41,318 nt of DNA from Denitromonas iodatirespirans. Its GTDB lineage: Bacteria > Pseudomonadota > Gammaproteobacteria > Burkholderiales > Rhodocyclaceae. The position numbers and the translations under genes were made by a program. Below the pieces are notes generated by a model. The model had not been told where the DNA came from, searched no databases, and saw nothing but the letters and a program-made list of their open reading frames with translations. Positions 7,291 through 34,360 of the stretch are shown here, piece by piece; position 1 is the stretch's first letter, and every line of letters starts with the position of its first letter. Where the stretch lies: assembly GCF_018524365.1 (NCBI RefSeq), contig NZ_JAEKFT010000036.1, positions 1 through 41,318 on the forward strand. Reading direction: 5' to 3'.

Positions 7291-8787
7291 ATGTCCCCCA
7301 CGCCCCGAGAACCTTCCCACTGGCTGCTGCGCACCCTGCTGTGGCTGCCCTGGCTGCTGGCCCTCATCGCCGCCATCTACGCACTCGGCCGCTTCACCGC
7401 CGACATCCCGGTGGCCTATGCCGAGGCACCCATGCACTTCAAGTACGGCTCCACCGGCGGCGAGCGCGAATCGGGCTTCCCGTACTGGATCTGGCAGGCG
7501 CTGCCCAAGGTCTGCCCCGAGCACCTGCCCGGCGAGGGCTACCGCTCGATCGGCTTCACCTACGAGCCGGGCAAGGACCTGCCGGTCGGCGTCTCCAAGC
7601 GCTTCAACCTCGGCATCGACCGGGTCTTCCTCAACTGCGCCGCCTGCCATGTCAGCACCGTGCGCGACGCGCCCGGCGCCGCGCCGCGGGTGATCCTCGG
7701 CATGCCGGCGCACCGGCTCGACATCAAGGCCTTCGAAACCTTCTTCTTCAACTGCGCGGCCGGGCCGAAATTCCGCAGCGAGTTCATCGTGCCGCAGATC
7801 GAGGCCATGGCCGGCCGGCTCAGCCCGCTCGACCGCTACGTGGTGTATCCGGTGGCCATCGCCCTGATGCGCGAACGCCTGCTGATGCTGCGCGACCGCT
7901 TCGCCTTCGCCTTCGACCAGCCCGACTGGGGCCCCGGCCGGGTCGATACCTTCAACTCGGCCAAGGTGCTGTTCAACTTCCCGATGCACCAACTGCCCAA
8001 GAAAGAGCTGCTCGGCGCCTCGGACTTCCCCTCCATCTGGCTGCAGGGCCCGCGCATGAAGCGCGACGACGGCCAGCGCATGGAGCTGCACTGGGACGGC
8101 AACAACACCCGCACCGAAGAGCGCAACAAGAGCGCCGCCTTCGGCACCGGCACCACCCCCCCGACCATCGATCTGCGCGCCATCGGCCGCATCGAGCAAT
8201 GGCTGCTCGACCTCACCCCACCGCCCTGGCCCTATGCCATCGACAAGGAAAAGGCCGAGCGCGGCCGCGCGCTGTATGCCGAGACCTGCGCCGCCTGCCA
8301 TGGCGCCAGCGGGCGCGACTTCTCGGGCAAATATGTCGGCCATGTCACGCCGATACAGCATATCGCCACCGACCGCGCGCGGCTCGACTCCTACACCTAC
8401 ACCCTGGCGGTGAACCAGGGCACGCTCTACGCCGGCTACCCGCACCGCTTCCAGCATTTCCGCAAGACCTTCGGCTACGCCAACATGCCGCTCGACGGCC
8501 TGTGGCTGCGCGGCCCCTACCTGCACAACGGCTCGGTGCCCACCGTGCGCGACCTGCTCGAACCCGCCGACGCGCGCCCCGCCAGCTTCTACCGCGGCAA
8601 CGACGTCATCGACCGCAAGCGCCTCGGCTTTGTCTCGAACGTGGCCAGCGAACCCGACCGGCAATACTTCCTGTTCGACACCACCGCGCCCGGCAACGGC
8701 AACACCGGCCACGAAGGCGCCGCCTACGGCACCACGCTGGCGCCCGAGGACAAGGACGCCATCGTCGAATATCTCAAGACCTTCTGA
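7291..8787 (+). CDS. membrane-anchored di-haem cytochrome c, paralogue 1
   Basis: 498 residues. One transmembrane anchor at about residues 12-32 (LLWLPWLLALIAAIYAL) places the rest in the periplasm. Haem motifs: CAACH at 116-120 and CAACH at 333-337. Downstream of the second is 'DGLWLRGPYLHNGSVPTVRDL', the signature of di-haem peroxidase/MauG/RoxA-type proteins. The first domain opens with 'MHFKYGSTGGERESGFPYWIW', repeated almost exactly in the paralogue at 9384 ('MRFKYGSIGAEADAGIPYWIF'), and the second haem falls at residue 333 in both. The two genes are therefore a duplication within the operon. The likely role is electron transfer or peroxidase-like chemistry at the outer face of the inner membrane; the true substrate is unknown. 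Confidence 0.85.
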   Translation: MSPTPREPSHWLLRTLLWLPWLLALIAAIYALGRFTADIPVAYAEAPMHFKYGSTGGERESGFPYWIWQALPKVCPEHLPGEGYRSIGFTYEPGKDLPVGVSKRFNLGIDRVFLNCAACHVSTVRDAPGAAPRVILGMPAHRLDIKAFETFFFNCAAGPKFRSEFIVPQIEAMAGRLSPLDRYVVYPVAIALMRERLLMLRDRFAFAFDQPDWGPGRVDTFNSAKVLFNFPMHQLPKKELLGASDFPSIWLQGPRMKRDDGQRMELHWDGNNTRTEERNKSAAFGTGTTPPTIDLRAIGRIEQWLLDLTPPPWPYAIDKEKAERGRALYAETCAACHGASGRDFSGKYVGHVTPIQHIATDRARLDSYTYTLAVNQGTLYAGYPHRFQHFRKTFGYANMPLDGLWLRGPYLHNGSVPTVRDLLEPADARPASFYRGNDVIDRKRLGFVSNVASEPDRQYFLFDTTAPGNGNTGHEGAAYGTTLAPEDKDAIVEYLKTF

Positions 8788-9257
8788 GGCCCACGCATGA
8801 ACGCCCGCCCACAAACACGTCGCCCGGATGCAGCGCAGCGGAATCCGGGGACACCGCCCCACTCCGGCACCACCACCCCCGGCGTCGGGCCTTCGGCCCT
8901 CGGCCGGGCTACGCCGACCGAGGCCCACGCATGAACGCCCGCCCGAAAACACGTAGCCCGGATGCAGCGCAGCGAAATCCGGGGACACCGTCCCACCCCG
9001 GCACCACCGCCCCCGGCGTCGGGCCTTCGGCCCTCGGCCGGGCTACGCCGACCGAGGCCCACGCATGAACGCCCGCCCGCACAAACGTAGCCCGGATGCA
9101 GCGCAGCGGAATCCGGGGACATCGCCCCACTCCGGCACCACCGCCCCCCGCGTCGGGCCTTCGGCCCTCGGCCGGGCTACGCCGACCGAGGCCCACGCAT
9201 GAACGCCCGCCCAAAAACACGTAGCCCGGATGCAGCGCAGCGAAATCCGGGGACACC
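8786..9257. repeat. 134-bp tandem repeat array, three and a half copies
   Basis: Copies start at 8786, 8920, 9054 and 9188, an exact 134-base period; the fourth is truncated near 9257. Each copy has only a few differences from the others by eye. Every unit begins with the same bases that end and follow the cytochrome gene (GAGGCCCACGCATGAACG), so the first unit starts at the stop codon of that gene. Inside each unit is a short element bounded by GTAGCCCGG and CCGGGCTAC (for example 8953-9046), containing CCCGGATGCAGCGCAGCG and ATCCGGG. This is the REP-like palindrome family common in high-G+C proteobacteria. The frames inside are not believed to be genes. Confidence 0.92.
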
Positions 9258-9367
9258 CACCCGAACCGGCATACCGTATGCCAGTGCGGTGCACCACTTG
9301 GACCAGCAACCGTTGAGATTCGGCACGCCGTTCCCGGATTCCGGCCTGCGGCCTGCATCCGGGCTAC
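9221..9367. repeat. REP-like inverted-repeat element, variant copy
   Basis: This element starts with GTAGCCCGGATGCAGCGCAG at 9221 and ends with GCATCCGGGCTAC at 9367, so the ends are inverted copies of each other. Its middle part differs from the middle of the 134-bp units and holds the stem TTCCGGCCTGCGGCCTGCAT near 9340-9358. It ends 16 bases before the ATG of the second membrane-anchored cytochrome, and its hairpin would lie at the 5' end of that reading frame if the operon transcript crosses the array. The stretch 8788-9383 contains no credible gene. Confidence 0.8.
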
Positions 9368-9383
9368 GCACAGGAGACGCCCC

Positions 9384-10853
9384 ATGAACACGACGACCGG
9401 ATCCCATCGCTGCCGCACCTGGCTGGCCGTACTCGGCTTGCTGCTCATCCTCGGCATCGCCGCCGGCGTCTATGGCTGGGTCAAGTTCTTCCGCGAGGTG
9501 CCGCAACCGGCCTGGGTCACCGAGGACCCGCACATGCGCTTCAAATACGGCTCGATCGGCGCCGAGGCCGACGCCGGCATCCCTTACTGGATCTTCTACG
9601 TGCTGCCCCGCGTGTTTCCCGACAAGCTGCCCGGCCCGGGCGGCTATGCCGCCTTCGGCGTGGCCTGGGAGCAAGGCATGGAGCTGCCGGTCGGCTTCAC
9701 CAAGAAGACCATCGGCTTCGACCGCGTGGCCAACACCTGCGCGGTGTGCCACACCGCCAGCTACCGCGTGTCCGAGGACAGCAACCCGGTGTTCGTGCCC
9801 ACCGGCCCCAACCACACGCTCGACCTGGCCGCCTTCTTCCGCTTCCTGATCGACTGCGCCAAAGACCCGCGCTTCACCCCCGACGTGCTGATGCGCGAGA
9901 TCAACCTGGTCACCGACCTGGCCTGGGACGACGCCCTCATCTACCGCTACCTCATCATCCCGATCACCAAGAAGCGCCTGCTCGAGCGCGAAGCCCAGTT
10001 CGCCTGGCTGTATCACCCGGCCTTCCCCGACTGGGGGCGCGGGCGCGACGACTCGATGAACCTCACCAAGTACTTCATGATCCGCTGGCCGATGGACGAC
10101 AGCTTCGGCCCCACCGACATGCCCTCGATCTGGAACCTCGGCAAGTACCAGCCCGACAAGGGCCACCGCATGAACTTCGCCGGCGACAGCCACAACGCCC
10201 GCTCGGTGGTCATCGATTCCGCCCTCGGCCTGCTCGGCGCGCCGCCCAAGGACAACGCCGAGTTCCTCGCCGAGATCGACTGGATGCTCGACTACCTCAA
10301 GGCCGCGCGCGCACCGGCCTACCCCTTCCCCATCGACCCGGCGCTGGCCGAACAGGGCAAGGCGGTGTTCGACGCCACCTGCGCGCGCTGCCATGCCTCC
10401 GAGCGCACCGGCACCGTGGTGCCGGTCGAGGAGGTCGGCACCAGCCGCGATCGCATGGAGACCTGGAACGAAAAGGCGGCGTATGAAGCCAACCAGGTCG
10501 TCACCGAGATGGGCATCGAGCGCGAGGGCCTGGTCGAAGAACCCCTGCGCGGCTACATCGCCGCCTTTCTCGACGGCATCTGGCTGCGCGCGCCCTACCT
10601 GCACAACGGCTCGGTGCCCACCCTGCGCGACCTGCTCGACCCGCCGGCCGCGCGCCCGGTCACCTTCTGGCGCGGCTACAACCTCTACGACCCCGAGCGT
10701 GTCGGCTATGTCACCTCGGGCGAAGCGGCCGAGCAAGCCGGCAGCCTGCACGACACCCGGCTCAAGGGCGGCGGCAACCAGGGGCACGACTTCGGCACCG
10801 CGCTGCCCGACGCGGACAAGACCGCACTGGTGGAGTATCTGAAAACCCTGTGA
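9384..10853 (+). CDS. membrane-anchored di-haem cytochrome c, paralogue 2
   Basis: 489 residues with one transmembrane anchor at about 13-33 and a periplasmic part homologous to the protein at 7291 along its whole length. Haem motifs are CAVCH at 119-123 and CARCH at 333-337, and the 'DGIWLRAPYLHNGSVPTLRDL' signature follows. The start is supported by AGGAGA eight bases upstream. Compared with the first paralogue it has an insertion-like acidic segment (MGIEREGLVEEPLRG) before the signature and lacks the 'CAACH' context of the first haem. It is separated from its paralogue by the 134-bp repeat array, so it may be expressed differently. Last gene of the cytochrome operon; a LysR gene converges on it 24 bases downstream. 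Confidence 0.85.
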   Translation: MNTTTGSHRCRTWLAVLGLLLILGIAAGVYGWVKFFREVPQPAWVTEDPHMRFKYGSIGAEADAGIPYWIFYVLPRVFPDKLPGPGGYAAFGVAWEQGMELPVGFTKKTIGFDRVANTCAVCHTASYRVSEDSNPVFVPTGPNHTLDLAAFFRFLIDCAKDPRFTPDVLMREINLVTDLAWDDALIYRYLIIPITKKRLLEREAQFAWLYHPAFPDWGRGRDDSMNLTKYFMIRWPMDDSFGPTDMPSIWNLGKYQPDKGHRMNFAGDSHNARSVVIDSALGLLGAPPKDNAEFLAEIDWMLDYLKAARAPAYPFPIDPALAEQGKAVFDATCARCHASERTGTVVPVEEVGTSRDRMETWNEKAAYEANQVVTEMGIEREGLVEEPLRGYIAAFLDGIWLRAPYLHNGSVPTLRDLLDPPAARPVTFWRGYNLYDPERVGYVTSGEAAEQAGSLHDTRLKGGGNQGHDFGTALPDADKTALVEYLKTL

Positions 10854-18594: not shown

Positions 18595-18978
18595 TCAGCG
18601 GCACAACACCTCGTCGCGAATCGATTCGGCAATCTTCGCCACCTCGCCGATCAGCGCGTCGCTCACGCCCAGTTCGCTGAGCGTGGTGGCCAGGTTCTCG
18701 ACCACCGCGTCGAAGTGCGTGTCGTTCAACCCGAGCTTGTCCACCAGCGGCTTGTGCGCCTCGCGCATGCCGCGCCCGTTGTAGCCGGGCTGGCCGCCGA
18801 AGGCCCAGGTGAGGAAGGTCTTCTGGTGCTGGCGTTGCTTGGCCATGTCGGTGTTCACGAAGAAGTGCTTGATGCGCGGATCGGCCAGCACCTTGTCGTA
18901 GAACTTGTCCACGGCGGCATCCACGGCGGGGGCGCCACCAATCTTTTCATACAGGCTCATGGCTACGGTCGTCGTCAT
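18595..18978 (-). CDS. group 1 truncated haemoglobin
   Basis: 127 residues from the ATG at 18978, preceded by AGGAG eight bases upstream (a second Met, at residue 7, gives 'MSLYEKIGG', also possible). It has the truncated globin pattern: 'SLYEKIGGAPAVDAAVDKFYDKVLADPRIKHFF', the distal region, 'GYNGRGMREAHKPL' with the proximal His (HKPL) at about residue 75, and the helical end. Group 1 truncated globins bind O2 and NO; NO detoxification by dioxygenation is the best supported role in bacteria. Here it is the last gene of an operon of redox proteins, which fits reduction of the globin by a nearby electron donor. Confidence 0.9.
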   Translation of the reverse strand: MTTTVAMSLYEKIGGAPAVDAAVDKFYDKVLADPRIKHFFVNTDMAKQRQHQKTFLTWAFGGQPGYNGRGMREAHKPLVDKLGLNDTHFDAVVENLATTLSELGVSDALIGEVAKIAESIRDEVLCR

Positions 18979-19010
18979 TTTTCGGCTCCTTGATTGAATC
19001 ACGAATACAA

Positions 19011-19367
19011 CTAGGGTTTGACGGTCTGGCTGGCCTGGACCATGTAGTCCACCGCCGCCTTGACGTCGTCATCGGACAGATCGGGATTGGCCCCGCGCGG
19101 CGGCATCTCGTCGCCGAGCGGGCCCATGAAGCCCTCCAGCGCATGGCGGTAGAGCACCGCCTTACCCTGGGCCACGCGCGGCGCCCAGGCCTGGGCATCG
19201 CCCAGCTGCGGGGCGCCGGTGGCCGGCTCCGCATGGCAGAGCTGGCAGGTGCCCAGCCACACCGCGCGGCCGCGCTCGAAGCCGGCCAGCTCCGGCGGGC
19301 GTCCGGCGTGAGCCGAGGCGGCACCGAGCAGGGCCACCGCCAGGCCAAAGGGGGTCTTCAAGCGCAT
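19011..19367 (-). CDS. small mono-haem cytochrome c
   Basis: 118 residues. Of two adjacent ATGs (19373, 19367) I choose 19367 because GAGG is eight bases before it but too close to the other. A signal peptide ends SAHAG; the haem motif is CQLCH near residue 40. The C-terminal 'LGDEMPPRGANPDLSDDDVKAAVDYMVQAS' is the class I c5/c-551-like ending, with a Met near 'MPPRG' as the probable sixth ligand. It is likely the soluble periplasmic carrier for this operon. Its start overlaps the 3' end of the Tll0287-like gene, with translational coupling. Confidence 0.85.
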   Translation of the reverse strand: MRLKTPFGLAVALLGAASAHAGRPPELAGFERGRAVWLGTCQLCHAEPATGAPQLGDAQAWAPRVAQGKAVLYRHALEGFMGPLGDEMPPRGANPDLSDDDVKAAVDYMVQASQTVKP

Positions 19368-19377
19368 CGCCATCGCC

Positions 19378-19941
19378 TCACATCGGCAGGCGCAGCACCA
19401 CACCGCCCATCACGTCGCCCATCTTGAAGTCGGTGCGCGGGCTGTCCTTGTGGTCGTTGTGACAGCTGATGCAGGCCTTGGCCACGGCCTTGTCGGGATA
19501 CACCGCGGTGAAGTAGGTCTTGCCGCCCAGCGTCTCTTCCTTGTAGAAGGGCTTGCCGGTGGCGGCGATGGCCTTGAGGCCTTCCTTCTCGACCTCGGTC
19601 TTGGGCGCGTTCTGCTTGTTCACCGGCCATTCGGAGAGCAGCGCGTAGCTGAAGCCGGCGTTCTTCTCGGCCACCATCTCGGCGCCGAAGCGGAACATCT
19701 GGGCCGGCAGCACCAGCGCCTTTTCGTCCTTCCAGTGCTCGCTGGCCTTGATCACCTTCTCCTGGTTCTGCAGACGGTTGACGATCAGCCGGGTGTAGAC
19801 CGTACGGTCGGATTCCATCACCGCATGCAGCGCATCGGCGATCTGCTGGTAGCTCCAGCCGGCGGCCATCGCCGGCGTGGCACAGCCAAGGCCGACGGCG
19901 ATGGCCGCGGCACCCAGGGGCAGTTTGAAATGCGTTTTCAT
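19378..19941 (-). CDS. Tll0287-like (DUF3365) haem protein
   Basis: 187 residues from the ATG at 19941 (open frame begins further up but has no signal peptide). A signal peptide ends PAMAAG. The mature protein is the DUF3365/Tll0287-like domain: helices 'YQQIADALHAVMESDRTVYTRLIVNRLQ', 'EHWKDEKALVLPAQMFRFGAEMV', 'FSYALLSEWPVNKQNAP', and near the end CISCH ('AVAKACISCHNDHKDSPRTDFKMGDVMGGVVLRLP'), which binds one c-type haem. Domains of this type are known as sensor-like periplasmic haem domains and also occur fused to histidine kinases. It could be an electron carrier or a gas sensor. It lies between the 11-haem cytochrome and the mono-haem cytochrome. Confidence 0.8.
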   Translation of the reverse strand: MKTHFKLPLGAAAIAVGLGCATPAMAAGWSYQQIADALHAVMESDRTVYTRLIVNRLQNQEKVIKASEHWKDEKALVLPAQMFRFGAEMVAEKNAGFSYALLSEWPVNKQNAPKTEVEKEGLKAIAATGKPFYKEETLGGKTYFTAVYPDKAVAKACISCHNDHKDSPRTDFKMGDVMGGVVLRLPM

Positions 19942-19994: not shown

Positions 19995-21446
19995 TCATGA
20001 GCGACCATCCTTGTCGGCAGACTCCGCCTGCGTCGCCTTGGCCGCGCGCGCCTCGCCCTCGCGGGCCACGGCCATGTCGATGCTCTTCACATGCCGGGTC
20101 GGCGCGTGCGGGAAGTTGTCTGCGCGCAGCACCGGATCGGCAAGCGCGTCGATGGCATAGCCCAGGCCGTGGCAGGCCAGGCACACCTGGCGCGCCATCT
20201 TGACCGGCGGGTTGAGACTCTTGCCCTGGGCGTGATCGACCAGGGTGCGGCGCACGAAGTCCGGGGTGTCATGGGCGACCCGTGGCAGATGGCAGGTGGC
20301 ACAGGTGACCGCCGTCTCGGGCGCCGCCGCCTCGACGGTGCGCGCATGCGGCGAGGCGAAATAGGCGCGGGTGTGGGTATCGTCATGACAACTGGCGCAG
20401 GCCTCGACCGCCGCGCGGCGGGTGTCGAAGCGGTGGCCGGCGTGGCAGCTGGTGCAACTCAGCGCCTCGTGCTGGCGCTCGGCCTTCATCGGCCGGCGTG
20501 CCTCGGCCGGGGTCATCGCCGGCAGGCCGGCCTTGAGGCGCATGCCGTGCAGGCCGGCAAGAAAGCCCTCGACCTCGGGGCCGTGGCATTGCACACAGGC
20601 TTTTTCGGTCGGCTTCTCGACCCAGGTCGCCGTGGCCACATCGCTGCCGTGCTGCGCTGCCGGCACATGGCAGGCGCTGCAATTGACGCCCGACCGGGCA
20701 TGCGCGGAGGCGGCCCAGTCTTCATGCACTGTGTCGGCGGCCGGCAGGGCGGTGCCGGCGTCGGCATCGGCACGCGCCAGCTCGACCGGCGGATACGTCT
20801 CGCTGGGGTAGTCGCCCAGCTCTTCGATGACCTCGCGCAGGTTGCGCGCCAGCACCTTCGGCTCGTCCTGCATCCGCCCCACCCCGGCATGGCGGACCAG
20901 GAAGTCTTCATACAGCGCGGTGTTGTCGTGGTAGTTGTGGCAGCCGGCGTCGGTACAGCTGGTGAAGGCCATGCCCTGGTGGCTGGGGCGCTCCTTGGCG
21001 ACGTCCTTGTGGCAGATCACGCAGTAGTCCTGCGGCAGCGTGACGCCGGCGCCGCGGGTGATGCCCGGCTTGTGCTCGACATGGCAGGTGACGCAGTAGG
21101 TAGCGTCGAGCAAGGCGGCGCGGTCGGCGTTGCGCGGGTCGGTGAATTTGGCGCGCGGGTGACTGTCGTCGACCGCCTTGAGGTCCTTGGCATGGCAGGA
21201 CTCGCACTTTGCCTGCACGTCGTCACGGCTCGGGAAGGCGCCGGCATGGCAGGCCGTACAGGCCAGCTCGATCTGGTAGTGGCCGTGGCTGGTCTGCCCG
21301 GGCAGCAGCCATGATCGCAGCACCAGGTCGGCCTTGCCGGGGCGCGGGTTGCCGAGGCTGTCGAGGCCGGCATACACGGCACCGGCAACGACGAAGGAGA
21401 TCGCCAGCCACAGGCCCCACCAGCGCAGATTGGTCTTCTTCTTCAT
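19995..21446 (-). CDS. membrane-anchored undecahaem cytochrome c
   Basis: 483 residues with an N-terminal transmembrane anchor at about 9-28 (WWGLWLAISFVVAGAVYAGL). Ten CXXCH motifs: Cys at 63, 81, 118, 142, 256, 284, 331, 350, 382 and 422; and one CTDAGCH at 164-170, a CX4CH motif known from some cytochrome c3-type proteins, which would give 11 haems. Many spare histidines ('DDSHPRAKF', 'HYHDNT') could be axial ligands. The C-terminal 50 residues are charged with no haem. I know of no named family with this exact arrangement. The gene overlaps or directly follows the reductase (8-base gap), so it is the likely acceptor of electrons from it. Confidence 0.85.
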   Translation of the reverse strand: MKKKTNLRWWGLWLAISFVVAGAVYAGLDSLGNPRPGKADLVLRSWLLPGQTSHGHYQIELACTACHAGAFPSRDDVQAKCESCHAKDLKAVDDSHPRAKFTDPRNADRAALLDATYCVTCHVEHKPGITRGAGVTLPQDYCVICHKDVAKERPSHQGMAFTSCTDAGCHNYHDNTALYEDFLVRHAGVGRMQDEPKVLARNLREVIEELGDYPSETYPPVELARADADAGTALPAADTVHEDWAASAHARSGVNCSACHVPAAQHGSDVATATWVEKPTEKACVQCHGPEVEGFLAGLHGMRLKAGLPAMTPAEARRPMKAERQHEALSCTSCHAGHRFDTRRAAVEACASCHDDTHTRAYFASPHARTVEAAAPETAVTCATCHLPRVAHDTPDFVRRTLVDHAQGKSLNPPVKMARQVCLACHGLGYAIDALADPVLRADNFPHAPTRHVKSIDMAVAREGEARAAKATQAESADKDGRS

Positions 21447-21453
21447 CGGCGCC

Positions 21454-23409
21454 TCAGAAGTAGTAAGCCTTGAGGATGTGCACGCCGAGCAGCACCGGCA
21501 GCGGCCACAGGGCGAGGATGTGCACCCAGGTGGCGCCGCGCTGCAGGCGCCGCACCCGCGCCGGCGGCAAGTCCTGCTGGCGCGACACCACCAGCGCGAT
21601 CGCCGCGCCGGAGAGGATCGCCAGCACCGCCATGGCGCTCATCAGCGCATCGAGGCGCACGCCCAGCCGGCCACCGGTGTGCACCCACATCACCGCCACC
21701 AGCAGCGCGCCGAGCAAGCCATGCACCACGCGCCAGCCGGCGAAGTCCCACAGCGCGGCCAGCCGCGGCCAGCGCTTGCGCAGGCCGATGACTGCCAGCA
21801 GCACCATGGCGCCGAGCGCGGTGTAGCCGGTGGCCTGCTTCCACACGCTGTCGCGCCAGATCACGTCCCAGCGCCAGGCCAGCTCGGCGGTGTCGGGGAA
21901 GGGGATGGTGGTCAGCAGATAGACCAGGGCCAGCAGCAGCGCCACCGCGCCGAGGCCGACCAGCGCACGCCAGCCGCGCACCGCCGGCAGCGCGCCGGCA
22001 TCGGCCAGCTCCGCCAGCAGCGGCCGGCAGCTACCGCACACGCTGCCGGCGCCGGTGTCGGCCCCGAGCGCCTCGACGCTGGCGCAACCGCGTGCCAGCG
22101 CGCCCGTCAGCTGCCCGCGCGTCACACCCGTGCAATGGCACACCGTGGCCTCGGCCGGCCACAGGCGTACATCGCCGGCGTCGGCATCCGGCCACAGCTG
22201 GCCGATGCGGGCAAAGCGCAGGCGCTGCCAGGGCAGCACCCGGCGACCGCTGCGCACCGCTTCCTGCACCCGCGACATCTCGGCCCACGGCCCGACCGCC
22301 TGGGCGCCGACGATGCGGCCCTGGCGGATCAGCACGCGCCGGTAGCCGTCGCCGTCCGGGTCGGCAAAGGCGCTCGCGCGCGCCGTGTCGGCCGGGCCCT
22401 GGCGCTCGACCTCGCCGATGCTGAACACCGCGCAGCCCATCACCTTGAGCCGTGTCGCCGCCACGCTGCCGGTATAGACGGCATCGCCGCCGCAGATGCG
22501 GTTGGCCGCCACCGCGGCCTGCTCCAGGCCGGGCGCGACCAGCCCATACACCTCGCCGCGATGCTCGGCGCACTCGCCCACCGCATGGATGCGCGGATCG
22601 GCGGTGCGGGTGTCGTCCTCGATCTTGATGCCGCGCCCGACCGGCAGGCCGGCACGCAGCGCCAGCTCGATGTTGGGGCGGATACCGGTGGCGACGATCA
22701 CCGTGTCGCAGGCGATCACCTCGCCGCCACGCAGCAGCACGCCGCTCACCTCGCGCCCGCCCTCGATGCCCTTGACCGCCGCCGACACCCGCGTCTCGAT
22801 CCCCGCCGCATGCACCGACTGCGCCAGCCAGGCCGCGCCCTCGGCATCGAGCTGGCGCGGCATCAGGCGGTCGGCATGCTCGATGACGATCACCCGGGTG
22901 TGGTAGCGGCGCATCGCCCGCGCCGCCTCCAGCCCCAGCAGCCCGCCGCCGATCACCACCGTCACCCGGCTGCGCACGGTGCGCGCCTGCAGGCGCTGCG
23001 CGTCGTTCAGGTCGCGGAAGGTGAACACGCCGGGCAGATCGATGCCGGGGATGTCGGGCAGATGCGGGCGCGAACCGGTGGCCAGCACCAGCGCGCCATA
23101 GGCCTGGCGCAGGCCCTGCGCATCGATGACCTCGCCCGCGGCCCGATCGATGCGCGCGATGCGGCAACCGAAGCGGGTCGTCACCGCCGCCGGCAGCACC
23201 GTCGGCACCGTCAGCGCCTCCCAGCGCACCTCGCCGACCAGCAAGGAGGACAGCTTGATCCGGTTATACGGCGACCACGGCTCCTCGCCATACCAGACGA
23301 TGGCGCGCCCGGGCGCCTGGGCGCCGATCGCCTGCACCACCCGGTGGCCGGCGGGCCCGCTGCCCACCACCACCACCGGACGCTCCGAAGTCTCTGCCGC
23401 TGGTCGCAT
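21454..23409 (-). CDS. NirB-like FAD/[2Fe-2S] oxidoreductase fused to di-haem b membrane domain
   Basis: 651 residues from the ATG at 23409, chosen over 23433 because GGAAGG is six bases upstream. Domain order: FAD Rossmann motif GSGPAG at 16-21; NAD(P) motif GGGLLGLEA at 154-162; ferredoxin-reductase body with 'ADGYRRVLIRQG'-like C-terminal part; BFD-type [2Fe-2S] domain with Cys424, Cys426 (CHC), Cys458 and Cys461 (CGSC); then about five membrane helices (480-502, 525-543, 559-579, 589-609, 626-647). Two helices carry His pairs of the same spacing, H563/H577 and H630/H644 (both H-x13-H), the pattern for two b-type haems. It would pass electrons from NAD(P)H through FAD and the cluster into the membrane haems, and then to the 11-haem cytochrome. 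The NirB-type siroheme part is absent. Confidence 0.85.
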   Translation of the reverse strand: MRPAAETSERPVVVVGSGPAGHRVVQAIGAQAPGRAIVWYGEEPWSPYNRIKLSSLLVGEVRWEALTVPTVLPAAVTTRFGCRIARIDRAAGEVIDAQGLRQAYGALVLATGSRPHLPDIPGIDLPGVFTFRDLNDAQRLQARTVRSRVTVVIGGGLLGLEAARAMRRYHTRVIVIEHADRLMPRQLDAEGAAWLAQSVHAAGIETRVSAAVKGIEGGREVSGVLLRGGEVIACDTVIVATGIRPNIELALRAGLPVGRGIKIEDDTRTADPRIHAVGECAEHRGEVYGLVAPGLEQAAVAANRICGGDAVYTGSVAATRLKVMGCAVFSIGEVERQGPADTARASAFADPDGDGYRRVLIRQGRIVGAQAVGPWAEMSRVQEAVRSGRRVLPWQRLRFARIGQLWPDADAGDVRLWPAEATVCHCTGVTRGQLTGALARGCASVEALGADTGAGSVCGSCRPLLAELADAGALPAVRGWRALVGLGAVALLLALVYLLTTIPFPDTAELAWRWDVIWRDSVWKQATGYTALGAMVLLAVIGLRKRWPRLAALWDFAGWRVVHGLLGALLVAVMWVHTGGRLGVRLDALMSAMAVLAILSGAAIALVVSRQQDLPPARVRRLQRGATWVHILALWPLPVLLGVHILKAYYF

Positions 23410-23451
23410 CGCCTGCCTTCCGCTGATCATCACCCGGGTGCCGGAAACGCA

Positions 23452-23511
23452 AAAGGCGCCACATCTTCAGGCACGCCGCACAACCGGCCCTGCCTGAAAA
23501 TGGACGCCTTT
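23452..23511. ncRNA. possible structured leader upstream of the reductase gene
   Basis: Two nested stems can be read: outer AAAGGCG (23452-23458) with CGCCTTT (23505-23511), 7 bp; inner TTCAGGCA (23466-23473) with TGCCTGAA (23491-23498), 8 bp. The loop is CGCCGCACAACCGGCCC. It lies just upstream of the minus-strand reductase start (23409) and would be in its 5' leader if transcribed from the right. The stems also form on the plus strand, so the direction is not decided. It does not match a riboswitch that I recognise. Confidence 0.45.
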
Positions 23512-24060
23512 GTCCTTGTTCCTGCCTGTCACCCACCGCCATTGGCGGGCTCACCCCACCCGTAGCGAGGGGCGTGCCAGGATCTACAACTTTTTGATTA
23601 GTCTTGATTTACTTGCAAAACCCGCCAATCCCAGCGGCTCGACTTGCACTGCTGCAGTGCAGCAAGAGCAGCTCATGCACCATGCCGACGCGCCATATCG
23701 CATCCCGACGAATCAGCCGATCTGCAAGCCCTCATCAACCGGACCAAGCCGGCGGAGCTCACGCACAGCCACATGCGAGGTGTTGCGTCTTCAACAAGCG
23801 TCGGCACACACAGCAAGCCCGACGCACGCAACCTGCCGGTGGAAGCCACTGAACGTCGCCCCCTTCCGCTCCTGAGGCTACCCGCTGAAACACGGCAACA
23901 AAACCGTCACATGATTGCCGTCTGAATCCGCTATCTTCGGCCGGACACAGTGTCTGGCGCCGTGATCGGCCCGCATCGCGGCCGAGCGGCGCCGGGCTTC
24001 GATCGCCACGCCCGGGCGGTTCGCTCCGCATGGCAGGCGCGCACCCACCGGAGTCTCATC
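23512..24060. other. gene-free stretch between reductase operon and arsC
   Basis: No open frame here has a start, ribosome site and codon pattern that I can support. It contains an AT-rich patch (about 23586-23620) with two direct TTGAT copies ten bases apart, a perfect 17-base palindrome at 23645-23661, and the region before the arsC start at 24061. It probably holds the promoters of the two divergent transcription units. Confidence 0.5.
23645..23661. promoter_or_regulatory. 17-base palindrome, candidate operator
   Basis: TGCACTGCTGCAGTGCA reads TGCACTG / CTG / CAGTGCA, a perfect inverted repeat around a 3-base centre. It lies about 235 bases from the reductase start and 400 from arsC. It has no T-run, so it is not a terminator. 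Such a dyad could be an operator; no known consensus is recognised. Confidence 0.35.
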
Positions 24061-25462: not shown

Positions 25463-25620
25463 GAGGTCTACCTGTCCAGGCGGGCGGGGCCGGAGGCGAT
25501 TTTCGCACAGTCCCGCCTACTTCGTGCCGTGGCGCCCGCATGGCCCTCTCTTGCGCTGCGTCAAACCGCCGCGCCTCCCCAGCGGCGATACTTCAGCGAT
25601 CCCTGATTGACAGTTCTGCC

Positions 25621-26295
25621 ATGCCATTGCGTCCGCTCCGCCTTGCCCTGTTTGCGTTGTGCCTGCCCACGCTGGCCGTCGCCGCCGAGCCCGATCTCGA
25701 CAACGGCCGCGCCGTCAACGGCACCTGTGCGGCCTGCCATGGCGAGAACGGCCAGGGCGGCAAGCAGGGCGAATACCCGCGCATCGCCGGGCAGAGCGCC
25801 AAGTTCATCGAATTCACGCTGAAGAGCTTCCGCGCCCGCGAGCGCATCAACCTGCCGATGTTCCCCTACACCCAGGAGCGCGAGCTGCCGGACGAGGACA
25901 TCCGCGACATCGCCGCCTACCTGTCGGCCATCGAGCTGCCGACCAAGCCGCCCAAGTTCAAGGACGACGACGACGCGCTGACCCGCCTCACCGCCATGCA
26001 GAAGGTGATGATCATCCCGCGCGTCGAGGGCGACATCGCGGCCGGCGGCGCGATCTACCAAGACCGCTGCACCACTTGCCACGGCAACGACGGGCGCGGC
26101 AAGCGGATCGTGCCGATGCTCGCCGGCCAATACACCAACTACCTGATGCGCCAGATGGAGCAGTTCCGCGAAGGCGTGCGCCCGCATGATGAAGAGCAGC
26201 CCGGCGAAGGCGTGCTGAAGGACCTCAAACCCGCCGACCTGCAGAACATCCTGGCCTACCTCACCACCTTGCAGAATCTCGAGGACAAGCAATGA
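25621..26295 (+). CDS. di-haem cytochrome c4-like protein
   Basis: 224 residues from the ATG at 25621 with a signal peptide ending LAVAAEP. Haem motifs CAACH at 36-40 and CTTCH at 150-154, each followed by the 'GENGQGGK' and 'GNDGRGKR' loops and by 'PRIAGQSAKFIEFTLKSF' / 'PMLAGQYTNYLMRQMEQF'. The tandem pair of class I domains with AGQ segments is typical of cytochrome c4, a di-haem carrier that feeds terminal oxidases. Its 3' end overlaps the next gene by four bases. Next to a SCO gene, it would serve aerobic or microaerobic respiration. Confidence 0.9.
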   Translation: MPLRPLRLALFALCLPTLAVAAEPDLDNGRAVNGTCAACHGENGQGGKQGEYPRIAGQSAKFIEFTLKSFRARERINLPMFPYTQERELPDEDIRDIAAYLSAIELPTKPPKFKDDDDALTRLTAMQKVMIIPRVEGDIAAGGAIYQDRCTTCHGNDGRGKRIVPMLAGQYTNYLMRQMEQFREGVRPHDEEQPGEGVLKDLKPADLQNILAYLTTLQNLEDKQ

Positions 26296-26633
26296 AAACC
26301 GCCATCCATGTCGTCATCCTGCTCGCCCTGTCGGCCCTGTTCGCCGTCCTGCCCGCCCGCGCCGCCGATGCCGGCACCGGGCTGATCACCGAATTGGGCG
26401 ACGCCAACGGCATCGCCCTGGCCTGCAAGCAGGCGGCCAACATGTCGGCGATCAAATCGCTGATGATCAACACCGTGCCCAAGACCCGCGCCAACGGCGA
26501 GCTGTTCGAGCACGCCACCAGCGAAAGCTTTCTGCGCCAGGGCAGCGCGGCATGCCCGTCGAGCGACGCGCTGTCCGCCCGCGTGACCGAGCTCGAAGCC
26601 CGGCTCAAAGCGCAGTTCAAGCAAGGCTCATGA
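26292..26633 (+). CDS. small periplasmic protein of unknown function
   Basis: 113 residues with a signal peptide ending ARAADAG. The mature part is mostly helical: 'GLITELGDANGIALACKQAANMSAIKSLMINTVPKTRANGELFEHATSESFLRQGSAACPSSDALSARVTELEARLKAQF'. Two cysteines (about 42 and 87) could form a disulfide. I recognise no family. The ATG overlaps the stop of the cytochrome c4 gene, and its own stop overlaps the SCO gene start, so all three are translationally coupled and this protein is likely to work with them. Confidence 0.75.
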   Translation: MKTAIHVVILLALSALFAVLPARAADAGTGLITELGDANGIALACKQAANMSAIKSLMINTVPKTRANGELFEHATSESFLRQGSAACPSSDALSARVTELEARLKAQFKQGS

Positions 26634-27229
26634 TCCGCGCGCTTGGCCGCTTCGCGCTTACCGCCCTGCTCGCGCTCGGCGCCTCGGCCGTGCCGGCCGC
26701 CGATGCCACTACCGACGACACGCCGCTGCGACCGCGCTATCTGCTGATGGACGCCAAGGGGCGGGCGGTCACCAACGAGACCTTTCCCGAGCAGTTCCAG
26801 CTGCTCAGCTTCGGCTACACCTTCTGCCCCGACGTGTGCCCCACCACCCTGGCCGAGGTGGCCGAGGTGATGAAGCAGCTCGGCCCGCTGGCCGACCGGG
26901 TGCAGCCGGTGTTCATCACCGTCGACCCGGCGCGCGACACCCCGGCCCAGCTGCAGCAGTATGCCGACTTCTTCGATCCGCGCATCATCGGCCTGTCCGG
27001 CTCGCCGGCGCTGGTCGAGCGCGTGGCGCAGAACTACAAGGTGCGCTACGAAATCGTGCGCGAACCGGGCGCCGCGCCCGACGCCTATGCGGTGGATCAC
27101 TCCGCCGGCCTGTACGTGCTCGCCCCCGGCGGCAGCTTCGTCAAGAAGTTCGCCTTCGGCACCCCGGTCAATCAGATCACCGACTCCCTGCGCCAGCTCA
27201 TCGATCAGGCGCCCGCCCCGCGCCAATGA
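26630..27229 (+). CDS. SCO1/SenC copper chaperone family protein
   Basis: 199 residues with a signal peptide ending VPAADA. The thioredoxin fold shows the copper motif C66-P-D-V-C70-P in 'FGYTFCPDVCPTTLAEV' and the third ligand His157 in 'AYAVDHSAGLYV'. SCO proteins deliver copper to the CuA centre of cytochrome oxidase or maintain its cysteines in the reduced state. It follows the cytochrome c4 gene and overlaps the preceding small gene. The copper motif is complete, so it should be functional. Confidence 0.92.
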   Translation: MIRALGRFALTALLALGASAVPAADATTDDTPLRPRYLLMDAKGRAVTNETFPEQFQLLSFGYTFCPDVCPTTLAEVAEVMKQLGPLADRVQPVFITVDPARDTPAQLQQYADFFDPRIIGLSGSPALVERVAQNYKVRYEIVREPGAAPDAYAVDHSAGLYVLAPGGSFVKKFAFGTPVNQITDSLRQLIDQAPAPRQ

Positions 27230-31876: not shown

Positions 31877-32617
31877 CTACGCGGACAGGGAGTTTTCCCC
31901 TTTTAAGAGCAGCAGTCGCTCCGGTTGTGGAATCAGTTCATCAAGCAACTCTTTCGCCGCGTAGTGTGCGTCCAGATAAAGAGAGGGGTGTCCCCGTACG
32001 GTCAAGGTTGCGATGGCGCTCATGCATGGTCTAGCCATGCCTAGCCATCCTTGGAACGCTTTTTCGTCAAAGGTCGGAAAATGGGCTAAGGCATGTATGC
32101 CTTCCATGTGAGCCAATGAAGCAGAATGACTAAATTTGCATAGAGCCACGTAAGTTGAGCGGAGTTGATTGAGGTGGACATTCCGCCCGCCGGCGAAGGG
32201 CTCCGTTGCTCGAGCAATGTCAAATAGACCGGAGATGCTTGTGGTTGTTAGCGCCAAGTTGTCGAACGGACCAGCTGCGAATCGAAGAAAGTTCTCAATG
32301 CTGCTGCGGAGGGCCATATGCCCTGGCTTGTATGCTCCGTGAAGACAACAGAAAAATCCGCTCCCGGTATCGGATATCGCCTCGCGGAGGTGAGAAAGCT
32401 CGGGGTCTTTAGCGCCGATCGATCTGCCAAAGTGCATGAGGCTGCCCTTTGTAGCCTCATCCAAACAAATAGCCCAGAGCTGAAGAAACGGCAGGAAAGC
32501 TTTATGCGCCGACTTAACTGTGGCTAACTGCTGGGCAGTAGTTACAACTTGGCCGAGTGTGTAGCTGTTCAAGAAGTCCTTGAGTAGTTCAAAGTCTGCG
32601 TCGATTGCCCTCGCCAT
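31877..32617 (-). CDS. unknown protein of the ParA operon, possibly HEPN-like
   Basis: 246 residues, no signal peptide, no membrane segment; mainly helical. The pattern 'MALRSSIENFLRFAAG' (Arg104, Glu108) and later 'LRSTYVALCKFSHSASLAH' (Arg153, His164, His170) recalls helical HEPN/AbiV/DUF5677-like proteins, in which an Arg/Glu helix is followed by a helix with Tyr and a conserved His. I infer this only from the pattern; it is not a firm family match. Its ATG directly abuts the stop of the gene before it (TAA then ATG), so translation is coupled. G+C content is lower than in the flanks. Confidence 0.5.
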   Translation of the reverse strand: MARAIDADFELLKDFLNSYTLGQVVTTAQQLATVKSAHKAFLPFLQLWAICLDEATKGSLMHFGRSIGAKDPELSHLREAISDTGSGFFCCLHGAYKPGHMALRSSIENFLRFAAGPFDNLALTTTSISGLFDIARATEPFAGGRNVHLNQLRSTYVALCKFSHSASLAHMEGIHALAHFPTFDEKAFQGWLGMARPCMSAIATLTVRGHPSLYLDAHYAAKELLDELIPQPERLLLLKGENSLSA

Positions 32618-33160
32618 TTAGCCCTGCTCACGAAGTAGCTCTTGGAGCGTTTCGTTCCAAGAGAAGCTTCCTGTTCTCTTTCTCTCTGCCATCTGGGCGA
32701 GCTTGTCTTTATTCTCGACTAGATTTTCGAGTGCTTGTACGAGCATGCTTAGTTCGTTGTCGTCTAGCGTGTCGGTCTCGCAGACGACCTTTCCTATGAT
32801 CTCGTACCGAGAACGCTTTTCCGTTCGGCTCATTTCAAGCTTGAGTGCGGCATTCGCGAAATCCGCGATGTCGTCATTCTGAGGGAATAGCTCCTTATCC
32901 TGAAAAAGCTTCGGAAGAACACCAATAAGAAACTGCTTGTTGGGATTGGAAGACTGGTACGTGCTTGCGACCGAAGGAGCGAAGTCTTCGCGAGTAAGCG
33001 AACTGCGTAGCAGATCAGCGGCCGCCCGTAACTGTTTAATATCCAGTTTTTGGATCGTCCAAACTAGATCATCGATGGCCATCGACGTCTTACGTAACTG
33101 TGGCAATGCCATGCGAGAAGCATCATTACTGCTTGTTTTCTTAGAGGCCATCAATGTCAT
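32618..33160 (-). CDS. unknown protein of the ParA operon
   Basis: 180 residues as read from 33160; the ATG at 33151 (MASKKTSS) is equally possible. Both overlap the end of the ParA gene. The protein is hydrophilic and helical: 'IDDLVWTIQKLDIKQLRAAADLLRSSLTREDF', 'PNKQFLIGVLPKLFQDKELFPQNDDIADFANAALKLEMSRTEKRSRYEIIGKVVCET', then 'MLVQALENLVENKDKLAQMAERKRTGSFSWNETLQELLREQG', which may be coiled. It is not recognised. In ParA operons the second gene often encodes a ParB-like or adapter protein; there is no HTH that I can see. Low G+C. Confidence 0.55.
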   Translation of the reverse strand: MTLMASKKTSSNDASRMALPQLRKTSMAIDDLVWTIQKLDIKQLRAAADLLRSSLTREDFAPSVASTYQSSNPNKQFLIGVLPKLFQDKELFPQNDDIADFANAALKLEMSRTEKRSRYEIIGKVVCETDTLDDNELSMLVQALENLVENKDKLAQMAERKRTGSFSWNETLQELLREQG

Positions 33161-33980
33161 CCATGAATTTATTTACTAAACCGGTCAGACCCGCACGAAG
33201 GTTGAAATCATCCATTTTCAGAATAAATGGCTGCGTAAGCTGCTGCTTTACTAACGCAGAGCGCTTTGGCAAGTATTCGTCGATTACGTAGCTTTTCCAG
33301 TACTTGTTGCTGGCGAGGTTCGCCTTTGCGGTGCTGTAGACCACGCTGTCCGGGCGTTCAACCATGGTCAGAACCACACCCAAGCATTTTAGCTTTAGGC
33401 CGTAGCTTTTTCGCCGACGGTCTATGATAGACCATAACAAATCGATCCCGATTAGCGAGAGCGGGTCGGGCTTGACCGGAATGATGTAATAATCTGACGC
33501 TATGAGGGCACTGGTCATCCAAACCGACGGCGTGGGCGGAGTGTCCACAATGGCGTAATCAAAGCCTGCTGGTTCGAGATTCTGCTCAATGAATCGTTGA
33601 ATCGCGAATTCTCTGCCTTCACCGTTGGTCATTTCGAGTCGGTAGAGATCAATGTTACCCGGGAGAGCCCAAAGCAAATCCTTCTTTTGTAGGACTATTT
33701 CGCTCAATTCTTTCGGCTCTGACGTCGTTGCGCCTCCCACGACACTTGCAATTGGCTTGATACCTGAGTCAAAGAGGTCTAATACGGTATCAGCGCCATT
33801 CTTCAGGAGGCCCACGTACTCCGAGCCGCTGAAAAGACATTGCGTTGCATTGAACTGGGGGTCGACGTCGATGACTGCCACTTTCTTGTCATGAGTACGG
33901 GCAAGGCAATCAGCGACGTTTAGTGCGAGAGTGGTCTTGCCAACGCCCCCCTTCATGTTCACAAAGCTGATGGTCTTCAT
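33141..33980 (-). CDS. ParA/MinD-family ATPase
   Basis: 279 residues from the ATG at 33980, with AAGG six bases upstream (an ATG at 33986 has no space for a ribosome site). Deviant Walker A 'KGGVGKTTLA' with K10 and K15, then 'VAVIDVDPQFNATQCLF' (Asp40 area, Walker A-prime), and 'FDYAIVDTPPTPSVWM' (Walker B, Asp146). It is a full-length ParA-type ATPase, similar to the chromosome/plasmid or orphan type. These ATPases move cargo along the nucleoid. No ParB or parS is visible. It is the first of three coupled genes of an AT-rich island, unlike the surrounding core genes. Confidence 0.85.
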   Translation of the reverse strand: MKTISFVNMKGGVGKTTLALNVADCLARTHDKKVAVIDVDPQFNATQCLFSGSEYVGLLKNGADTVLDLFDSGIKPIASVVGGATTSEPKELSEIVLQKKDLLWALPGNIDLYRLEMTNGEGREFAIQRFIEQNLEPAGFDYAIVDTPPTPSVWMTSALIASDYYIIPVKPDPLSLIGIDLLWSIIDRRRKSYGLKLKCLGVVLTMVERPDSVVYSTAKANLASNKYWKSYVIDEYLPKRSALVKQQLTQPFILKMDDFNLRAGLTGLVNKFMDDIDGL

Positions 33981-34029
33981 TTTCATCCTTCGGATGGGTT
34001 CCGCCCTGTCGATGTGAACTGGGGGCTAT

Positions 34030-34075
34030 GTACGTAAATAGCCGGAAGCGTACTTCCAAAAAATACTGATGACAA
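34030..34075 (-). promoter_or_regulatory. candidate promoter and dyads of the ParA operon
   Basis: On the minus strand TTGTCA (34075-34070) is followed after 17 bases by TACGCT (34052-34047), a fair sigma-70 type pair. Two overlapping small dyads sit on the -10 region: GGAAG/CTTCC (34044-34057) and GTACG/CGTAC (34030-34053). Autorepression by ParA operons is common, so a repressor site here is plausible. The distance to the start at 33980 is about 65 bases. Confidence 0.35.
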
Positions 34076-34360
34076 CATTGCCTTATATACGGCTTCGGGT
34101 CGATCTCTGCCATTCGCCAAAGCGAGCGAGGGAGAGCCCGACAGGGAGCCAGCTCGCCGACCGGACGCCGCGTGAAAGCCGCAGCGGGTTGCGCAGTTGG
34201 CACGAAACCCATCCCGCCTCCACCGCCAGCAAGCGTAGGTTGGGCTGACGAAGGAAGCCCAACACTCATCGCTCGATGTCTGCACTTCCGATGTTGGGCT
34301 TCGCTGCGCTCAGCCCAACCTACATGATGCTGTCGACCTCAGCCGACCGACCGCAACGGG
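34076..34360. other. non-coding junction right of the ParA island
   Basis: The stretch between the ParA promoter and the pseudogene fragment contains no credible gene. Base composition rises again to the high G+C of the flanks after about 34100. It contains the REP-like element at 34234-34323 and probably marks the right edge of the inserted DNA. No direct-repeat attachment site was found by eye. Confidence 0.5.
34234..34323. repeat. REP-like inverted repeat, GTAGGTTGGG family, second copy
   Basis: CGTAGGTTGGG at 34234 and CCCAACCTAC at 34314-34323 are inverted ends, and GAAGCCCAACA / TGTTGGGCTTC pair inside. It belongs to the family at 18484-18577. It lies between the ParA operon and the sensor kinase gene. 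Confidence 0.85.

Follow-up and report, generated by a model that had tools for sequence, protein, structure and literature searches.

In NOX/FRD proteins, a single chain takes electrons from NAD(P)H through a flavin to two haem sites stacked on transmembrane helices 3 and 5 (TM3 and TM5), and the reductase part is cytoplasmic. According to the available part of the source, the ligands in NOX2 are H101/H115 on TM3 and H209/H222 on TM5 (PMC3591440). The N-terminal half of NirB (NCBIfam TIGR02374) contains, in this order, an FAD/NAD domain, a Rubredoxin_C-like domain, and a BFD [2Fe-2S] domain; the other half carries sirohaem/4Fe-4S. In Bradyrhizobium, the narK-bjgb-flp-nasC unit encodes an NAD(P)H flavoprotein and a single-domain globin together with nitrate genes under NasT control, as far as the accessible text of PMC4724949 describes it; that text names neither a membrane haem domain nor a multihaem cytochrome. 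Here, we describe a gene cassette on a contig of Denitromonas iodatirespirans (NZ_JAEKFT010000036.1, assembly GCF_018524365.1; the whole stretch of 41,318 nucleotides analysed is called the window below). Its first gene encodes a fusion of a NirB-like reductase, a BFD-type [2Fe-2S] domain, and a membrane domain with two putative haem b sites, and its second gene encodes an 11-haem c-type cytochrome. The cassette probably encodes a nitrogen/nitrate-controlled NAD(P)H:periplasmic multihaem cytochrome oxidoreductase. The component parts are of known kinds, and their combination and its control appear new. In the literature searched, which included no preprints and only a minority of subscription papers, no description of the fusion, of an undecahaem cytochrome paired with it, or of a multihaem nitrate-assimilation cassette was recognised.

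The fusion gene runs on the minus strand from an ATG at 23409 to a stop codon ending at 21454. A GTG at 23433 is an alternative upstream start, which would give a longer frame. The gene and its domains are as follows.

21454..23409, minus strand: fusion gene for FAD/NAD(P)H reductase, BFD [2Fe-2S] domain, and putative membrane di-haem b domain, 651 amino acids (aa)
22507..23376, minus strand: Pyr_redox_2 domain, NirB-like, aa 12–301, Pfam E = 1.3e-54
22006..22146, minus strand: BFD-type [2Fe-2S] domain, aa 422–468, Fer2_BFD E = 2.8e-11, C424-x-C426-x31-C458-x2-C461
21457..21990, minus strand: membrane domain, aa 474–651, with H563/H577 on TM3 and H630/H644 on TM5

An earlier note on this DNA, made from the letters and their open reading frames, had described one protein joining a NirB-like reductase, a BFD domain, and a membrane domain. 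Pfam and NCBIfam find the reductase and BFD domains in that order, with a Rubredoxin_C domain at aa 318–388, and the four cysteines and two H-x13-H pairs lie exactly at the residues the note had given. Both the NirB-like FAD/NAD part and the BFD domain are thus present in the fusion. Residues 12–470 align with positions 1–466 of the 794 positions of the NirB model, and the score of 367.3 bits does not reach the curated cut-off of 578.35 for NirB itself. Because the match ends at position 466, the sirohaem half is absent, as had been claimed; the fusion has the membrane di-haem domain where NirB has its sirohaem/4Fe-4S half. A sequencing-error fusion of two genes, named beforehand in the note as a ground for giving up its reading, is excluded. 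The third-position GC content is steady at 0.89–0.96 across the entire frame, and the full frame is free of stop codons in five genomes among the 101 relatives searched, namely the window's own and four others of its genus, whose proteins are 72–84% identical.

The residues expected to bind the cofactors are conserved without exception. C424, C426, C458, C461, H563, H577, H630, and H644 are invariant in 85/85 aligned rows; the window is one of these rows, L065 and L066 repeat two genomes of the genus, a few locus pairs are near-duplicates, and the row from genome G240 is without most of the FAD part. The glycines that bind FAD and NAD are retained in 83 rows, and the remaining two rows are cut. 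Their conservation makes NAD(P)H the natural donor. An acidic residue is usual in NADH enzymes at the position equivalent to residue 177 of the fusion. It is E or D in 63/85 rows, which weakly favours NADH as the donor.

The membrane domain has five helices, and all 85 rows carry two histidines on each of TM3 and TM5, the layout of FRD/NOX-type proteins. In 74 sequences, the putative cytoplasmic loops contain on average 4.6 and 4.0 K+R and the periplasmic loops 2.3 and 0.9; the periplasmic loop with 2.3 K+R also carries 2.6 D+E, which balances its charge. The positive-inside loops therefore place the N-terminal reductase in the cytoplasm and, of each H-x13-H pair, the first histidine (H563, H630) toward the cytoplasm and the second (H577, H644) toward the periplasm. 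The AlphaFold model of the fusion has a mean predicted local distance difference test (pLDDT) score of 94.3, and helices span the membrane stretches. By arithmetic, the 14-residue spacing would put both histidines of one helix on the same face, about 21 Å apart. The model and topology suggest a cytoplasmic reductase with two haem sites stacked across the membrane, like those of NOX and ferric reductases. The fusion differs from NOX/FRD proteins in that its reductase is NirB-like with a [2Fe-2S] domain and is N-terminal to the membrane part, in that the TM5 histidines are spaced by x13 versus x12 in NOX2, and in that it is paired with a dedicated cytochrome gene.

The earlier note had proposed comparing the membrane domain with the cytochrome b561 and ferric-reductase families. 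Among the 74 membrane domains, weak Pfam matches are seen to cytochrome b561 in 10 and to DUF4405 in 25. Ferric_reduct (PF01794) is not significant on the fusion (aa 527–586, E = 0.52) and reaches E ≤ 0.1 in just 2/74 domains. An FNR-type FAD/NAD domain is contained in none of 78 three-domain fusions and is seen only in a variant from G240 (locus L059, 1–1692). Here an FNR-type module lies between the BFD and membrane domains, and genes for an 11-haem cytochrome and a Tll0287-like protein come after the fusion gene. The contig begins inside this variant fusion gene.

Downstream of the fusion gene, four genes follow on the same strand.

19995..21446, minus strand: 11-haem c-type cytochrome with 10 CXXCH and 1 CX4CH motifs and a hydrophobic N-terminal segment
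19378..19941, minus strand: Tll0287-like (PF11845) monohaem protein, 187 aa, CISCH
19011..19403, minus strand: small cytochrome c (PF13442), start codon uncertain
18595..19002, minus strand: bacterial-like (truncated-type) globin (PF01152), start codon uncertain

Among the 101 relatives, which include ten members of the genus, the same five encode the full fusion and the full 11-haem protein; two others show only short, weak cytochrome matches. All five contain the fusion, the 11-haem cytochrome, the Tll0287-like protein, the small cytochrome c, and the truncated-type globin in a row. The globin is present in L031 even though the gene caller passed over it, and G008 retains the five-gene unit despite different flanking genes. 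Among 398 genomes of the phylum, a full-length membrane domain is found in three (G000, G221, and G240), with partial matches in 26 more. A full-length cytochrome is found in the same three, and 110 have any match.

A wider survey scanned named genomes with the cytochrome alignment alone, a query without any part of the fusion, and kept 80 loci from 333 relatives. By record titles, these come from beta-, gamma-, and alphaproteobacterial isolates and metagenome-assembled genomes (MAGs), including Marinobacter, Alcanivorax, Aliagarivorans, Filomicrobium, and Thiobacillus, and from Verrucomicrobia, Nitrospirota, and Poribacteria. Directly upstream of the cytochrome gene, on the same strand, 78 of the 80 loci carry the three-domain fusion (in L091 it is cut at the contig start). 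The remaining two are cut by their contigs, L094 starting inside the membrane domain and L110 inside the cytochrome. In 79 loci, 3–127 bases separate the end of the fusion from the first aligned cytochrome residue. Of the 80 loci, 79 have a Tll0287-like gene. It follows the cytochrome by no more than 391 bases in 78 and is located upstream in L143; the contig of L097 ends before it. The earlier note had called for a survey of this kind. The module is rare (below 1% of sampled genomes) yet tightly coupled. The membrane domain has no match in plasmids and the cytochrome no relative in viral contigs, which speaks against plasmid or viral carriage of the cassette.

The downstream cytochrome is as the earlier note had described it, except that the fusion stop codon and the cytochrome ATG are 7 bases apart rather than 8. 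Ten CXXCH motifs plus one CX4CH are seen in 79/80 loci, and ten plus two in the other. Twelve histidines outside the motifs are conserved, ten of them in 74/74 rows and two in 73/74. These are enough for eleven bis-His haems and favour a wire, though one haem may be open. The AlphaFold model of the cytochrome has a pLDDT of 83. The third gene passes the Pfam gathering score for PF11845 (76 versus 24.1 bits), and one CXXCH is present in 79/79 Tll0287-like proteins.

A three-part layout in common with the cassette is found in the same phylum, where clusters (L060, L061, and L064) encode an FAD oxidoreductase, a roughly 290-aa cytochrome b that contains two H-x13-H pairs, and an FHA-like decahaem cytochrome. 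By Pfam, the FAD oxidoreductase of L060 carries cNMP and 4Fe-4S domains. By hhalign, in each case from four sequences, the membrane domains are related to those of the cassette over TM2–TM4 (E = 2e-11), and the N-terminal haem regions are related as well (E = 2e-16). In these clusters, however, the parts are separate proteins, the iron–sulfur clusters are of ferredoxin type and not BFD, the cytochrome carries an FHA-type domain, and a long insert lies between TM4 and TM5. At L062 (8268–9929), a 553-aa frame with 21 haem-type motifs adjoins a cytochrome b of this wider family. UetJ of the Uet complex likewise has eleven (or twelve) haem motifs; Uet differs in that the available part of PMC10734462 describes it as a porin/tri- and tetrahaem conduit.

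Upstream of the fusion gene, the sequence resembles a nitrate-type control region, of which the earlier note makes no mention. TGGCAC-N5-TTGCW is a sigma-54 site, and hexaloops with A at position 1 and G at position 4 (A1 and G4) mark targets of ANTAR proteins. The window contains the following elements.

23564..23580, minus strand: sigma-54-like −24/−12 promoter element
23531..23550, minus strand: leader hairpin P1, hexaloop AATGGC (A1, G4)
23502..23515, minus strand: leader hairpin P2, GGAC[AAAGGC]GTCC hexaloop (A1, G4)
23451..23511, minus strand: long terminator-like hairpin ending CCTTTT, which shares bases with P2

Two A1/G4 hexaloop hairpins followed by a terminator are the layout of a NasT-type leader. 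The 191-base leader stretch folds 4.5 s.d. better than shuffled sequences (z = −4.5), and the Rfam narK RNA (RF03032) matches 23578..23501 of the minus strand with 29.4 bits (E = 0.0012). The leader is kept in four of the five genus cassettes. In G001, G006, and G007 (3/10 genus genomes), the cassette leader is the top narK RNA match of the whole genome (E = 2–3e-5), and in G001 and G006 the second-best match lies directly after nasT. G009, which is without the cassette, also has a narK-type leader by nasT. The window's genome contains only two matches below E = 0.01, one of which is the cassette leader. The other is located between a NasT-like gene (ANTAR/response regulator) and an operon that encodes an NMT1_2-type binding protein together with a permease and an ATPase; both permease and ATPase pass the NCBIfam cut-offs for nitrate ABC transporters (242.5 versus 209.05 and 331.7 versus 291.8 bits). 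The cassette leader thus resembles the NasT-type leader of the nitrate ABC transporter operon in the same genome, and it may be bound by NasT. Antitermination by NasT at hairpin leaders has been reported in Paracoccus, according to the accessible part of PMC5424462.

The same elements recur in front of related fusions. Among 71 upstream stretches (including those of the window and L031, and without L104, L073, L083, L065, L066, and L134), a sigma-54-like site is found in 30 versus 1.4 expected, and double hexaloop hairpins in 13 versus 0.1–0.3 in controls. The P2 motif occurs within 420 bases upstream of the fusion in 19/78 loci, with 25 occurrences in 1.96 Mb on both strands. Among these 19 loci are two from the genus and two pairs of near-duplicates, L072/L073 and L083/L087. 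These P2 and sigma-54 counts are partly post hoc, as the strict P2 pattern matched 4/74 stretches and the wider one was written after the observed forms had been seen, and the sigma-54 pattern was relaxed so that it would accept the site in the window. The comparison of motif counts with the rest of the same loci holds despite this.

Nitrate-assimilation genes are also seen around the cassette. Neighbours were counted as single-linkage clusters in 77 of the 80 loci (L104, L073, and L083 were dropped as near-duplicates), antisense clusters were ignored, and families were checked on examples. The recurring neighbours are a single-domain globin (56 loci), a small cytochrome c (45), NrtA/NasS-like proteins (30), a NasT-like regulator (21), NrtB-like proteins (20), and NrtD-like proteins (17). 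At least one nasT/nrt-type gene lies within the fetched stretch in about 33/77 loci; this excludes L108 and L131, two of 35 nrt-type loci, which had only an ABC ATPase. A globin gene of either kind is found in 64 of the 77 fetched stretches. Truncated-type globins occur in 8/80 loci and never together with the single-domain type. In L129, L134, and L137, a truncated-type globin gene and then an FNR-type reductase gene stand directly downstream of the cassette, possibly a globin and reductase pair.

Genome-wide searches for NasA-like and NirD proteins covered 50 of the 80 loci. A gene counts here as NasA-like if its product scores 400 bits or more against the L128 protein, a molybdopterin oxidoreductase whose C-terminal domain is of BFD type. 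Such a gene is present in 45/50 cassette genomes versus 65/148 phylum controls (Fisher p = 3e-9, with kinship ignored and with fewer candidates per genome scored in the controls, where G240, itself a cassette genome, was not among the listed matches). It lies within 30 kb of the cassette on the same contig in at least 13/50 (about 0.8 expected), a lower bound because of contig breaks. NirD is also within 30 kb of the cassette in 13/50, and a full NirB is encoded near the cassette in L077.

The proposed oxidoreductase could work as follows. NAD(P)H would reduce FAD in the cytoplasmic NirB-like domain, and the [2Fe-2S] cluster of the BFD domain would relay the electrons to one haem b on the cytoplasmic side (H563/H630) and then to another on the periplasmic side (H577/H644). 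The 11-haem cytochrome would accept them there, and the Tll0287-like protein and the small cytochromes would receive them next. As the positive side is where the electrons would go, the membrane potential would aid the transfer. The sigma-54 promoter and the NasT (ANTAR) antitermination leader would turn the operon on in the presence of nitrate when little fixed nitrogen is available. The single-chain route from NAD(P)H through membrane haem to the 11-haem cytochrome had been drawn in the earlier note, and ligands, topology, helical model, and gene pairing all agree with it; the direction of flow, the presence of haem b, and the acceptor are what we infer.

By analogy with the Bradyrhizobium globin/flavoprotein system, as the available text of PMC4724949 presents it, nitrate-type control and the globin would point to reactive nitrogen species as the purpose of the module. 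Tentatively, its likeliest role is to deliver reductant for periplasmic nitrite or nitric oxide (NO) during nitrate assimilation, alongside the globin. In textbooks, nitrate assimilation is cytoplasmic. A bolder and somewhat more doubtful speculation is that the cassette represents a periplasmic branch of it, controlled by NasT and sigma-54, with a potential-assisted outward conduit and with the 11-haem cytochrome reducing nitrite or NO, in at least four phyla as judged by record titles, many of which are of MAGs. A conserved cassette that joins NAD(P)H to an 11-haem cytochrome, under what look like the control signals of nitrate assimilation, would mean either a missing step (periplasmic handling of nitrite/NO) or an unsuspected electron route in this pathway. 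Such control would link an unstudied electron-transfer module to bacterial feeding on nitrate. The fusion itself would be a compact, single-chain conduit from NAD(P)H to a multihaem protein, open to direct testing.

Several results weigh against the nitrate-controlled oxidoreductase. The narK RNA gathering score of 43.2 is not reached in any of the ten genus genomes (29.4 for the window and 38.1 at best). Weak narK RNA matches (E ≤ 5) occur in 10/14 control genomes, and therefore only low-E matches are meaningful. The fifth genus cassette (L034 of G008, 8475–10502) has no clear leader, with a match of E = 3.7 at the right place, and G008 shows just a partial match to NasT. No sigma-54-like site is found in 41 of the 71 upstream stretches and, by the rule used, no double hexaloop in 58. 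The L128 query passes no curated NCBIfam cut-off, so the name NasA is our own label. No NasA-like match lies on the same contig within 30 kb of any of the five genus cassettes. Half of the ten genus members (five) carry a NasA-like gene but no cassette, and the cassette is therefore not required. Foldseek finds nothing significant in the PDB for the fusion model (the best matches, E = 0.08, are talin helical bundles) and no match for the cytochrome model. NirD scores over its cut-off in 40/50 cassette genomes, and a simple replacement of NirBD by the cassette, another candidate role, is therefore unsupported.

Other readings share parts of this evidence. The 11-haem cytochrome may itself reduce periplasmic nitrite or NO arising from nitrate assimilation, while the globin handles cytoplasmic NO. 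This is an enzyme-level version of the role suggested above and has much the same tentative standing. The frequency of globin genes, together with nitrate-type control, fits it, and narK-bjgb-flp-nasC offers a precedent in which globin and NAD(P)H flavoprotein counter NO (PMC4724949, available part). The cytochrome also shows a weak match to the NrfA family (PF02335, E = 3.4e-7). However, its best stretch is just 48 residues around haem motifs, and the twelve conserved histidines allow eleven bis-His haems, that is, a wire in which no site is open to a substrate. The flow could also be reversed or branched, with the FAD/BFD part as a NasC- or Flp-like donor to nitrate reductase or globin and with periplasmic cytochromes supplying electrons to the [2Fe-2S] cluster inside by way of haem b. 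The NirB-like reductase, the NasA-like genes near the cassette (both of those examined carry their own BFD domain), and the proposal in the accessible part of PMC4724949 that Flp is the donor to NasC and globin agree with such a scheme. It appears unlikely given the genus members with a NasA-like gene and no cassette, and given the conserved FAD/NAD-binding glycines, which make NAD(P)H the natural donor.

A role in extracellular electron transfer or in the reduction of metals, where the 11-haem protein would form the periplasmic section of a conduit through the outer membrane, is less likely still. The cytochrome is multihaem and weakly similar to the DmsE/MtrA decahaem family (TIGR03508), yet its 47.8 bits are far under the cut-off of 192.2. 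No porin–cytochrome partner is seen among the recurring neighbours in the 77 loci, where no dedicated porin search was made, and the control looks nitrate/nitrogen-like. An alginate-export-like protein neighbours the cassette in 11 of these loci. Least likely is a NOX-type superoxide- or ferric-reductase-like enzyme to which the cytochrome is merely accessory. The di-haem ligand layout on TM3 and TM5 is that of NOX/FRE proteins, as described in the part of PMC3591440 available, but the 78 three-domain fusions are without an FNR-type domain. Further, the full-length membrane domain or fusion always occurs with a full-length 11-haem gene (3/3 in the phylum genomes and 5/5 in the relatives, samples that were not started from the cytochrome).

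Elsewhere in the window, two proteins with cytochrome-c-type haem motifs, alike by eye, are encoded in tandem on the plus strand (7291–8787 and 9384–10853) and are followed by a LysR-type regulator gene on the opposite strand. Beside the cassette, 25540–27229 of the plus strand encodes a two-CXXCH cytochrome c, a small protein, and an SCO1/SenC protein; this group is kept in G001, partly in G006 and G007, and is not seen in G008. At 32000–34300 on the minus strand, the G+C content falls to 0.50–0.51 (at 32–34 kb) versus 0.63–0.77 elsewhere in the window. This stretch contains a ParA/MinD-type ATPase gene at 33141–33986 and is possibly a mobile-element remnant.

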